DNA from: Nesterenkonia sp. Act20 | GTDB lineage: Bacteria; Actinomycetota; Actinomycetes; Actinomycetales; Micrococcaceae | Direction: 5' to 3' | Assembly: GCF_019173455.1 (NCBI RefSeq) | Contig: NZ_JADPQH010000002.1 | Coordinates: 697,490-761,489 of the forward strand | DNA length: 64,000 bases | In this document: piece after piece, positions 48,959 through 54,760 of the stretch | How positions within the stretch are numbered: position 1 is the stretch's first letter | Layout of the letters: every line of letters starts with the position of its first letter | Made by a program: the position numbers and the translations under genes | Notes under the pieces: model-generated | Told to the model about the DNA's origin: nothing | The model's input: the letters and a program-made list of their open reading frames with translations, nothing else | The model's database searches: none

Positions 48959-50584
48959 TCAGTTTCTGCTGATAGCGGTGAGAAGCGCGGCGACGGCTTT
49001 GGCCCCCGGGTCTTCAACACCAGAAGAGGCAGCGTCAGGAACATAGGCGGCTCGACCGGACCGGGCTGCGAATTCAGCCGTTCCGCGTGCACCTGATTCC
49101 GCCTCTCGGGCAGCTTCCACCAGGCTGCCACCCGCGTCCAGGACCCTGAACGCTGGGGCGATCGCGTCGACCATCGTGGAGTGTCCTTCTTCAGCGCCGC
49201 CATGGTGCATCATCGCGTTGAGCCCAGCACCTAAGGCGTCTGCCCAGTTGGCGTCTCGAGCCAACACCTCGGACATGGCAGTCGTGAGTATCGCAAGAAG
49301 AACTCCCGATGAGCCGCCCATTCGCGTTTCAAGGATTGTTGCTACGCGGTTCATACCCGCGGCGGGGTCGGCGAATCCCAGGGTGCCCGCGTCGAGGTCC
49401 GCGAGTATGGCTTCGGCCCCAGCGCGGAACGTTGTTCCTGCATCGCCGTCGCCGGTGGACCTGTCAAGGTCGTCGAGCACAGCCTTCAGCTCGATAAGGG
49501 TCAAGCACCCCTGCCTGACCCTCTCCTCAATCTGGTTTCCGGCGGAAACTTCCATAGGTGTATCTGGTTGTTTCTTGTTTCTGCTCTTTGTCCGCCGAGG
49601 CGATTCTTTGACTCTCTTCGGGGCCATCCAGGCAGGGGCAGTAGTCGGTCTCTCCAGCGCCGTGACCAGAGCATCCTCTGCAGGCATAGCCGTGACAGAG
49701 AATCCCTGCATTCCAAGGGATGTCATCGCTCTCACCGGGCCAATGAAGCGTGCGATTCGGGACGGACCAATCTGGCGAATCAGTTCGTGCGTGAGAACAA
49801 GGCTCTCCTGGGCTGAACATCCGCCGAGGTCGTTGAGCATGATCACCATCTTCTGGGGCTCCGCGGCGATCTCCAGAGACTCGATCACCCGTGCGACCGC
49901 GTCGGCAGCACTGTCGATGGAGATGGTTTTCGCCCCAGGCTCGTTGTGGATCCCCAAGCCCAGTTCGGCTCCACGCTCGAGATCAGGTGCATCACCTGGC
50001 AACTGAGCCGGGCCAAGCGCCACCCCGATGGTGCGAATCGACCCCGCCGCCTGGCGCGCGGCGTCTGCTACTTCAGTGAGGCTCTTGCCCGTCCACGCCG
50101 CGGCTCCCGCCACTTTGTGCACCAATATCGTTCCGGCGAGCCCGCGTGGCTGCTCGAAGCCAGGGAGTGCCACATCGTCTGCAACGAGGACGGTTTCGAC
50201 CTCGTAGCCCTCTTGACGCGCGCGCTCAGCGGCGAGCCCGAAGTTCAGTCGATCACCGGTGTAATTCTTGATCACCAGAAGGCACCCAGCCGGACCGGAA
50301 ACATGTCGAATGCCCTCAAGCACAGCGGTGACCGAAGGAGAGGAGAAGATCTCGCCAGGTATGGCCGCGTCTAGCATTCCCTCGCCGATGAACCCGGCAT
50401 GGGCAGGCTCGTGACCTGACCCACCACCCGAGATGACGGCGACTCGAGATGGGTCGCGCTGTGACGCGGCTCCTACGAGGACTGTTGTCCCTTCAGAAGT
50501 CTCAAGTTCTTCTAACTCGAGAGTCTGCGTCATGGCCGAGAGCATCTCGGGCACCAAAGTTTCACGAGAGTTATAGAACGGCAT
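48959..50584 (-). CDS. Fused dihydroxyacetone kinase (DhaK-DhaL)
   Basis: The 541-residue protein has a DhaK part (SGGGSGHEPAHAGFIGEGM, SSPSVTAVLEGI, substrate-binding His in LGIHNEPGA), a very basic linker near residue 330 (KRVKESPRRTKSRNKK), and a DhaL ATP part (STGDGDAGTTFRAG, ETRMGGSSGVLL, EGHSTMVDA). It would phosphorylate dihydroxyacetone or a related keto-sugar with ATP. It lies last in a one-carbon gene block but is separated by 124 bp with its own operator-like palindrome. The substrate is unproven; related kinases act on erythrulose and other tetroses. Confidence 0.85.
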   Translation of the reverse strand: MPFYNSRETLVPEMLSAMTQTLELEELETSEGTTVLVGAASQRDPSRVAVISGGGSGHEPAHAGFIGEGMLDAAIPGEIFSSPSVTAVLEGIRHVSGPAGCLLVIKNYTGDRLNFGLAAERARQEGYEVETVLVADDVALPGFEQPRGLAGTILVHKVAGAAAWTGKSLTEVADAARQAAGSIRTIGVALGPAQLPGDAPDLERGAELGLGIHNEPGAKTISIDSAADAVARVIESLEIAAEPQKMVIMLNDLGGCSAQESLVLTHELIRQIGPSRIARFIGPVRAMTSLGMQGFSVTAMPAEDALVTALERPTTAPAWMAPKRVKESPRRTKSRNKKQPDTPMEVSAGNQIEERVRQGCLTLIELKAVLDDLDRSTGDGDAGTTFRAGAEAILADLDAGTLGFADPAAGMNRVATILETRMGGSSGVLLAILTTAMSEVLARDANWADALGAGLNAMMHHGGAEEGHSTMVDAIAPAFRVLDAGGSLVEAAREAESGARGTAEFAARSGRAAYVPDAASSGVEDPGAKAVAALLTAISRN

Positions 50585-50649
50585 CGCGCTCCCCCATTAT
50601 TGTCATTCAGCATGCGCATGAGGCGCTTGAATATGATGTACGGGCGACG

Positions 50650-50676
50650 GATTGTGAAGCGTAACACATCACAATC
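50650..50676 (-). promoter_or_regulatory. Operator-like inverted repeat before dhaKL
   Basis: GATTGTGA and TCACAATC form 8-bp perfect arms around an 11-bp centre, 66 bp upstream of the kinase ATG. On the minus strand TTCACA could serve as -35 and CATATT, 17 nt later, as -10, placing the site over the promoter. No regulator gene is adjacent. Confidence 0.5.
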
Positions 50677-50708
50677 TCTGAACCTCCTGGAAGCCTCGAA
50701 CTGGCCGG

Positions 50709-52229: not shown

Positions 52230-52295
52230 CTTGCTCACCTTTGTCTTCGATAGTCCTCGTCTCGGTGTTCACCGATCCGTGATGCCGCGCTCGAC

Positions 52296-53171
52296 TCAGA
52301 AGACGATCGTGGCCGAGCCGTCCCGCAGAACCCGGTCTTCACAATGCGCCTGGACCGCCGAGGAGAGGACCCGCCGTTCGACGTCCGCGCCTCGTCGCTG
52401 GAGGTCTGCAGCAGTGTCTCGGTGCGACACCGCGATGACGTCCTGGGCGATGATCGGTCCTTCATCCAGATCCTTGGTCACATAGTGAGCCGTCGCCCCC
52501 ACCAGCTTCACACCACGTTCTTTGGCCTTGCGGTATGGCGCGGCCCCGATGAAGGCAGGAAGGAAGGAGTGATGGATATTGATGACCGGCACCCCGAGGC
52601 CCTCGATGAAGTCTTCTGTCAGGATCTGCATATAGCGGGCAAGCACGACGAGGTCTACGTTTCCCTGCAGCAGCTCAAGCTGTCTGGCCTCCACCTCCTC
52701 CCGCGGCTTCCCAGCAGTGGGCGTGTGGAAGAACGGGATGCCGAGGGAACGAACATCTTCGTCCAGGCCAGTGTGATTGGAGATGACCATAGCGATGTCG
52801 ACGGGCAGCTCACCCCGCCGATAGCGCCAGAGCAGATCGAGCACGCAGTGATCTGAAGTCGAAGCCATCACCGCGATGCGCTTCTTCTTGGAGGCATCCA
52901 CCAGCGAATGATCAAGACGGAAGCCTTTGAGCGCCTCACCGATTTTGGCATCCAGCGCAGGCAGCTCCGCCGAGAGATGAGGCATCGAGAACACGGTTCG
53001 CTGGAAGAAGCGTCCTCCGTCGGGGTCCGTCGTGTGCTGGTCCAAGGAGATGATGTTGGCACCGGCTGCGGAGAGTATGTCGGTGATGGCAGCAACTATT
53101 CCAGGCTCGTCGGTGCCGTATACAACAAGCCTGCCGACATCTGCGAACGACTCGCTCTTCTCTGCACCCAT
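52296..53171 (-). CDS. purU: Formyltetrahydrofolate deformylase
   Basis: The 291-residue protein has an N-terminal ACT domain (VVYGTDEPGIVAAITDIL, ISLDQHTTDPDGG) and a C-terminal formyl-transfer domain (VLARYMQILTEDF, INIHHSFLPAFIGA, GATAHYVTKDLDEGPII). It hydrolyses 10-formyl-THF to formate and THF. Here it would regenerate THF after methyl oxidation and export the carbon as formate. ATG 53171 has AAGGGA upstream; ATG 53186 is an alternative. Confidence 0.93.
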   Translation of the reverse strand: MGAEKSESFADVGRLVVYGTDEPGIVAAITDILSAAGANIISLDQHTTDPDGGRFFQRTVFSMPHLSAELPALDAKIGEALKGFRLDHSLVDASKKKRIAVMASTSDHCVLDLLWRYRRGELPVDIAMVISNHTGLDEDVRSLGIPFFHTPTAGKPREEVEARQLELLQGNVDLVVLARYMQILTEDFIEGLGVPVINIHHSFLPAFIGAAPYRKAKERGVKLVGATAHYVTKDLDEGPIIAQDVIAVSHRDTAADLQRRGADVERRVLSSAVQAHCEDRVLRDGSATIVF

Positions 53172-53353
53172 GGGTGTTCCCTTCATTCCCGGTCTCTTCC
53201 TTCGTGGGGCCCGTCGGGGCGCCGGCCGCCACTGATGCCAGCAGCGACCGGCACGATCACGTGATTCAGCTCAGGCCTTGATTCGCCCTGGCTGTGTCCG
53301 CATCGTCACGGAGCGACCCCGGAGAAGCGTTGAGGCAGAACTTTGTCAGTGCT

Positions 53354-54760
53354 TTAAGCCGCAGTCCCGGTCCGCCAACCGCCGTGGTACTCCTTGCGGG
53401 CCACGACGGAGAAAGGCACCGGGCTGACGACTGCTCGCACCTCGATCTGTTCGTGAGGTTCCACCGTGGGCTTGGAGGTTCCTCCGTTGGGCTCACCCCA
53501 CAACACTTTGACCTCGGCACCCTCGGGGACGTCCGGAGAGACGGTGGCCAGAGAGATTGCCCGTCGATCATTGGAGGTGTAGCCGGTGAACATCGAGAAA
53601 CCGACGTTCGTGCCTTCGGCATCGAGGACTGAGTCGTAGTTGGAGGAGCCGTACTGGGCCATCGGCAGGTCGAAGTACTTGTACTGTGGTCCATCGACAT
53701 CGACGAGTGAACCCCAGATCTTCTTCATGTCCTCACTGTTCCAGGACAGGGTGACCTTCCGACGCTGGGTGCTCGGATCGATCTTCTCCAACGCCTCACG
53801 GCCGATGAAGTCGTGGTCGAACTTCACGAAGTTGCCGTAGCCGAGCTCCCACGGGGTGAGGTAGTAGTCGTCGATGGAGTCGCCAACGAAACTGCCAGCG
53901 ATGGCGTTGATGGCCTCGTAGCTGTCAGCGCCCAACCACTCTCTATAGCCCCGCATCTCCTCGCCCGTATAGACCGCCGGAAGCGGAGAAGGGATCCACC
54001 CTGATTCGATCGTGTTGGAGGAATACGTGCGGGAGCCCACCGGCACCATGCCGAATTCGGCTCCCTGCTCCAGGATCGCGTCACGGATCCGGAAGTAGTC
54101 CTCGTAGGGACCCCAGAGCTCCAGACCTGGCGCGCCGGCCATACCGTGACGCAAGGTCCGCACCTGGGTGCCATCGACCTGCATATGCGACATGTTGAAG
54201 AACTTCAGCTGCTCCAGTGAACCGCCGTGGAGCTTTTCGATCACCTGCCAGGCGTTGGGGCCCTGGATCTGGAAACGCCAGTACTTGCGCTGAACCGGAC
54301 GTCCCAGGGGGTGGGAAGGGGAACGACGATCAATCTCGACATTGACGTTGTAGCCACCCGTCTCGGCGTGGAAGATCAGCCAGTTCGCAGCAGGCGAGCG
54401 GCCTACGTAGATGAACGTCTCCTCCGCCTCGCGAAAGACGATGCCGTCACCGATCACGTGACCAGAATGGGAGGTGGGAACGTACTGCTTGGCCTTGTTC
54501 ACCGCGAAATTCGCGACGGAGTTGACCGCAGTGTCCGAGATCAGCTTCAGCGCGTCAGGACCTTCGATGATCAGGTTGTCCATGTGGTGGGACTGGTCGA
54601 ACAGCACGGCGGAATTGCGCCATGCCTGCTGTTCGGTCCGCCAGTTGGAGAATTCCGTGGGCACGACCGGGTACACGTAGGCACCCAACTGAGAGTTGCG
54701 GAGCAGGTCCACGGTGCTGTTCGAACCGTCCAGGACATCTTGCAATGACCGGTGAGTCAT
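53354..54760 (-). CDS. ligM: Tetrahydrofolate-dependent O-demethylase (LigM/DesA type, GcvT fold)
   Basis: The 468-residue protein has the aminomethyltransferase (GcvT) fold and resembles LigM/DesA along its whole length: [120 protein letters not shown] and a [20 protein letters not shown] end. LigM moves the methyl of vanillate or 3-O-methylgallate to THF. GAAGGAG lies 6 nt before the ATG. The real substrate here is unknown; purU, metF and folE downstream support THF dependence. It is first in the block, behind a strong promoter. Confidence 0.85.

Follow-up and report, generated by a model that had tools for sequence, protein, structure and literature searches.

A putative operon for tetrahydrofolate-dependent O-demethylation with a second folE gene in Nesterenkonia sp. 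Act20

Introduction

LigM-type demethylation routes use one tetrahydrofolate (THF) per methyl group, so how THF is supplied and recycled is important both for growth on methoxyaromatics and for lignin valorization. In Sphingobium lignivorans SYK-6, the demethylase LigM is encoded in a ligM-metF-ligH operon together with a methylenetetrahydrofolate reductase (MTHFR; S6MTHFR), which is reported to run in reverse, and the 10-formyl-THF synthetase LigH. Here we analyse a 64 000-nucleotide stretch of the genome of Nesterenkonia sp. Act20 (the window), in which the genes ligM, purU, metF, folE and dhaKL form a locus that is very probably an operon for the THF-dependent O-demethylation of vanillate-type methoxyaromatics, in which FolE (GTP cyclohydrolase I) would raise the supply of THF. 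As in SYK-6, LigM is encoded together with an MTHFR, and the two MTHFRs belong to one subfamily. Unlike SYK-6, the host is an actinobacterium, PurU, which hydrolyses 10-formyl-THF, takes the place of LigH (none of the five genes matches the 10-formyl-THF synthetase family), and FolE and DhaKL are added. The locus is a known type of system, with LigM at its core, carrying an extra folE that may boost folate supply.

Folate genes have been found next to other one-carbon (C1) pathways. The chloromethane plasmid pCMU01 of Methylobacterium extorquens CM4 carries cmuA and cmuB with metF2, folD, purU and folC2, and resembles the present locus as a C1 catabolic replicon with its own MetF, PurU and folate-synthesis gene (excerpted text of PMC3621897). 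It differs in its corrinoid-dependent CmuA/CmuB and in having FolC2 as the additional folate gene; as far as the excerpted text goes, folE has no plasmid copy (PMC3621897). Since pCMU01 carries metF2, folD, purU and folC2, C1 catabolism with folate genes of its own is not new. The dicamba demethylase (Dmt) cluster of Rhizorhabdus dicambivorans Ndbn-20 reportedly also includes metF, folD and purU, and we know of no FolE in it; it would be alike in coupling a THF-dependent O-demethylase to MetF and PurU and unlike in its substrate, dicamba. The names of these three genes are absent from one paper on dicamba (PMC9404685).

The gene set suggests the following route. LigM would demethylate vanillate (or 3-O-methylgallate) with THF as the methyl acceptor; the products would be protocatechuate and 5-methyl-THF, and the SYK-6-type MetF would oxidize the latter to 5,10-methylene-THF. 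A single FolD encoded elsewhere in the genome would convert this to 10-formyl-THF, from which PurU would release formate and free THF, pulling the route forward. By adding to pterin input, the second FolE would keep demethylation from being limited by the THF acceptor pool, and PcaGH, encoded about 53 kb away, would open the ring of protocatechuate.

Results and discussion

The demethylase

The ligM product scores 900.8 bits against the NCBIfam equivalog model NF047885 (cut-off 580), which places it in that family, and its best solved structures, PDB 5tl4 (E = 8.7e-221) and 5x1i (E = 1.3e-220), are both LigM. In a tree of 129 rows, built by a quick method after exclusion of rows shorter than 380 or longer than 700 residues, identical rows and ten loci, it is part of a clade of actinobacterial LigM, next to 5x1i (SH-aLRT, a likelihood-based branch support, 99), and is separate from GcvT and from the second-type paralogues. 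The closest named relative among the best 80 of 296 matches is a LigM from an uncultured Nesterenkonia (96% identity). Tyr31, Arg122 and Tyr247, which we take to be the active-site residues with catalytic or substrate-binding roles, are all kept, as read by eye from the alignments with a numbering that takes 5x1i to begin with three additional residues.

Other identities were rejected on score: the syringate O-demethylase DesA (629.8 bits; cut-off 800), GcvT (88.2 bits; cut-off 300), dimethylsulfoniopropionate (DMSP) demethylase (46 bits; cut-off 410) and sarcosine oxidase (54.1 bits; cut-off 1164). The reading made earlier from the sequence alone had named a LigM/DesA-type demethylase and proposed checking it against GcvT and the DMSP and sarcosine types; model score, structures and tree bear out LigM, and the protein lies outside GcvT by tree and score and outside the other two by score. 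As judged from the sequence, the predicted product is securely a LigM-family demethylase, and the core of LigM, SYK-6-type MTHFR and PurU is likewise secure.

MetF and the direction of flux

MetF is a divergent MTHFR, reaching 42.3 bits against PF02219 (cut-off 24) and staying under the NCBIfam cut-offs. In an MTHFR tree, from which the MetF rows of 17 loci were excluded as duplicates or fragments, it belongs to the same clade as the SYK-6 enzyme, apart from canonical MetF; this grouping excludes a housekeeping-type MetF. Because of this kinship MetF probably oxidizes 5-methyl-THF, as had been proposed. It is the sole PF02219 match in the genome, so it may serve methionine synthesis as well.

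The sole match also raises the alternative that the module is chiefly biosynthetic, as it is in SYK-6: methoxy groups would supply methionine synthesis with 5-methyl-THF and the remaining C1 needs with methylene-THF, while PurU would only vent the excess. SYK-6 is reported to depend on the LigM–MTHFR route for C1 units, and a PF02219 match is absent from 14 of 30 Nesterenkonia genomes, some of them incomplete (a canonical match of about 200 bits occurs in only three). However, PurU destroys formyl-THF, PF02219 might miss an FAD (flavin adenine dinucleotide)-independent MTHFR, for which no search was made, and, unlike SYK-6, which reportedly has no glycine cleavage system, the genome holds a strong GcvT match (304 bits). 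We consider this alternative unlikely. Of the GCV_T matches in this genome, the third (L003) resembles YgfZ by its motif.

A further divergent MTHFR type adjoins GcvT-like genes at two Nesterenkonia loci (L157:5080-9369 and L158:7293-9170), which perhaps serve a dimethylglycine or sarcosine route.

PurU, FolD and the LigM neighbourhood

PurU scores 344.1 bits against TIGR00655 (cut-off 285.95). FolD is not among the five genes by family profiles; the sole PF02882 match of the genome lies at C2:367995, about 380 kb from the operon (C1 and C2 are the two contigs of the 2.93 Mb genome, one of which includes the window). The sequence-only reading had expected FolD elsewhere but had called the module self-contained, a description that does not fit an operon lacking FolD and with FolE as its only folate-synthesis gene.

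Neighbourhoods were surveyed at 75 loci retrieved with LigM as query, from the best 80 of its 296 matches; they are 38 actinobacterial and 37 other loci, with LigM identity floors of 60% and 50%, respectively; hits had at least 40% query coverage, were counted once per place and lay within 5 kb of LigM. The actinobacterial loci gave MTHFR 31 times, PurU 16, FolD four, FolE two and DhaKL once, and all 16 with PurU also have MTHFR. The other 37 gave MTHFR 20 times, PurU once and FolE never. The survey includes 26 'type A' MTHFR loci, though the MTHFR tree puts one of these (L005; 31% identity) with the other type. The LigM–MTHFR pair is thus common in LigM-bearing Actinobacteria, with PurU a frequent partner, in support of the combination read earlier from the sequence, and FolE a rare one.

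Substrate and ring cleavage

The want of an adjacent ring-cleavage gene had been taken to mean that the substrate might not be a lignin aromatic. This reading is not supported, as there is a pca cluster at about C2:801.9-810.5 kb, roughly 53 kb from ligM, in which PcaH and PcaG pass their models, a PobA-like protein passes a subfamily model, PcaB-like and PcaD-like genes score under their cut-offs, and a CMD (PcaC-like) gene, an IclR regulator and a major facilitator superfamily (MFS) transporter are also present. The genome thus has PcaGH-type 3,4-cleavage genes, whereas SYK-6 uses 4,5-cleavage (PMC6888825).

A natural substrate other than vanillate, such as 3-O-methylgallate or a methoxyaromatic unrelated to lignin, would be in keeping with the name of NF047885, which spans vanillate and 3-O-methylgallate, and with a LigB-family gene at C1:1923068. 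Given PcaGH and the shortfall against the DesA model, we regard it as quite improbable and take vanillate-type compounds as the probable substrates.

The second FolE

The operon FolE scores 211.9 bits against TIGR00063 (cut-off 181.6); an alternative ATG at 51320, four codons in, may be its real start. The genome has another FolE at C1:1627233. Across 30 Nesterenkonia genomes, a second FolE occurs in 4/8 with LigM or a LigM-like protein (at least 480 bits) versus 0/22 others (p = 0.003), or in 3/7 versus 1/23 if only LigM above the cut-off is counted (p = 0.03); two of the eight LigM genomes are just 62–65% complete, and the p values ignore relatedness. The four are the Act20 genome, G009 with the same operon, N. 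haasae (G007) and G014. N. haasae has the order MetF-PurU-FolD-LigM-FolE followed by a PabB-like gene (best NCBIfam match PabB, 310.5 bits, just below the cut-off of 328.4), and G014 has a MetF-FolE pair at a distance of some 10 kb from a LigM-like gene that is accompanied by PurU and FolD.

Outside the genus, Naasia lichenicola and a metagenome-assembled Microbacteriaceae genome (L031 and L035) also have LigM, MTHFR, FolE and PurU together, in the order MTHFR-LigM-FolE-PurU-FolD; unlike the Act20 locus they include FolD, their MTHFR is of the other LigM-linked type, and their FolE is very different in sequence. In the FolE tree (six duplicate rows excluded; these two the only Microbacteriaceae FolE) their FolE splits from the other 27 rows at 100/100, on long branches, and the Act20 FolE falls among those of Nesterenkonia. 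This pattern argues for at least two recruitments of FolE to LigM loci, as far as such a tree can tell, and the proposed association of FolE with LigM recurs in two families. Among the papers listed in our literature searches none pairs ligM with folE, though Yu 2025, cited for surveying genomes for gene sets of this kind, may already report FolE.

Several observations weigh against a FolE role in demethylation. A near relative (L004/G026) retains LigM-PurU-MetF-DhaKL and has lost folE, of which a remnant is left (27/34 bases match; best of 200 shuffles 23). FolE lies within 5 kb of LigM in just two of the 38 named actinobacterial loci. Among 295 genomes of the family, 34 of which have an extra FolE by hand count, it occurs in 7/79 with LigM versus 27/216 without (p = 0.54). 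As 22 of these 27 belong to one genus, its removal gives 7/79 versus 5/194 (p = 0.04), and further removal of Nesterenkonia gives 3/73 versus 5/177 (p = 0.70). In the three LigM genomes of this last comparison (G129, G139 and G160), no LigM was found in about 20 kb around the extra FolE. Two further points count against the operon reading as a whole: none of its five genes encodes a transporter or regulator, and a promoter-like site directly upstream of dhaKL, found by pattern scan, hints that dhaKL may be a separate transcription unit.

These data bear on the alternative that the core module works as proposed while FolE and DhaKL are passengers, FolE being a duplicate with no special part in demethylation. 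The loss of folE in G026 and the presence of another FolE in the genome speak for it, as does the missing association of extra FolE with LigM in the family outside Nesterenkonia. The extra FolE was inspected in 12 of the 30 non-Nesterenkonia genomes that have one (a third, partial copy in one genome left out), and no LigM occurs in the stretches retrieved around it. Against the passenger reading stand the LigM-linked FolE of very different sequence in two families, the association within the genus and the PabB-like gene of N. haasae. We hold this reading to be a distinct possibility, though short of an even chance. The PabB match slightly favours a role in supply, for which the reworked family counts are neutral; such a role is plausible and recurrent, but folE was lost in a close relative.

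Another C1 locus, around the extra FolE of one of these 12 genomes, a different Micrococcaceae (L162:7579-17988), encodes PabB (334.5 bits; cut-off 328.4), FolE, two ketopantoate hydroxymethyltransferase-like proteins, MTHFR, an MFS transporter and PurU, and could be a catabolic module for pantoate or a similar hydroxymethyl compound with its own folate genes.

Organization of the locus

Table 1. Features of the ligM locus and its flanks (window coordinates).
Feature	Position	Strand	Evidence or remark
ligM, THF-dependent vanillate/3-O-methylgallate O-demethylase	53354..54760	-	NF047885; PDB 5tl4/5x1i; tree
purU, 10-formyl-THF deformylase with ACT domain	52296..53186	-	TIGR00655; Formyl_trans_N + ACT
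metF, homologue of SYK-6 (LigM-coupled) MTHFR, presumed 5-methyl-THF oxidizer	51369..52238	-	PF02219; clade
folE, second GTP cyclohydrolase I	50709..51332	-	TIGR00063
dhaKL, fused dihydroxyacetone-kinase-type protein	48959..50584	-	Dak1 + Dak2
Promoter-like site upstream of ligM	54887..54914	-	10/12 matches, best of three; conserved in three-genome alignment
Perfect 8-pair hairpin just before ligM ribosome-binding site	54774-54794		Conserved in three genomes
menB	47795-48850	+	Flanks module on dhaKL side
menE/menA pair	55341-57421	+	Flanks module on ligM side; menA placed by open reading frame and synteny

All five genes are open and on the minus strand (Table 1; order from open reading frames and family profiles), with gaps from ligM to dhaKL of 167, 57, 36 and 124 bases, and their co-transcription is presumed. 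The five-gene block had been read correctly, but functions had been given to four genes only, leaving DhaKL unaccounted for. DhaKL has Dak1 and Dak2 domains above Pfam cut-offs, scores too low for any of the five listed NCBIfam models and is left unexplained by the proposed pathway. G009 (L147) has the identical order of all five genes, and the module lies between menB and menE there and in G026. Its genes have a G+C content of 0.61–0.64 versus 0.67 for the window and 0.68–0.69 for the neighbouring men genes (third positions, 0.65–0.79 versus 0.84–0.87), and this lower G+C suggests an insert acquired between menB and menE.

The pattern scan gave three promoter-like sites (mean in shuffles 1.1) and one terminator-like site, within dhaKL (mean in shuffles 4.0). 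The promoter-like element before ligM contains ACTACNTACATAG between its hexamers, which is possibly an operator. The ligM leader is overall not unusually stable (z = -0.40), and a known riboswitch was rejected, since a search of 48700-55500 against Rfam gave no match even at E values of up to 1.

Biological implications

The pairing of LigM and a reverse-type MTHFR with PurU and an additional FolE suggests a portable solution in which THF is recycled via formate and its pool is enlarged. A PabB-like gene adjoins FolE both in N. haasae and at another C1 locus. As a tentative and rather doubtful generalization, we put forward that THF-dependent C1 modules of Actinobacteria repeatedly acquire enzymes for the entry steps of folate synthesis (FolE and an adjoining PabB-like protein), enlarging the THF acceptor pool on demand, and that in the Act20 genome, whose only recognized MTHFR is in the operon, methionine synthesis may depend on methoxyaromatics for its methyl groups. 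If true, recruitment of FolE and PabB-like enzymes would amount to a design rule for catabolic routes with folate as a co-substrate.

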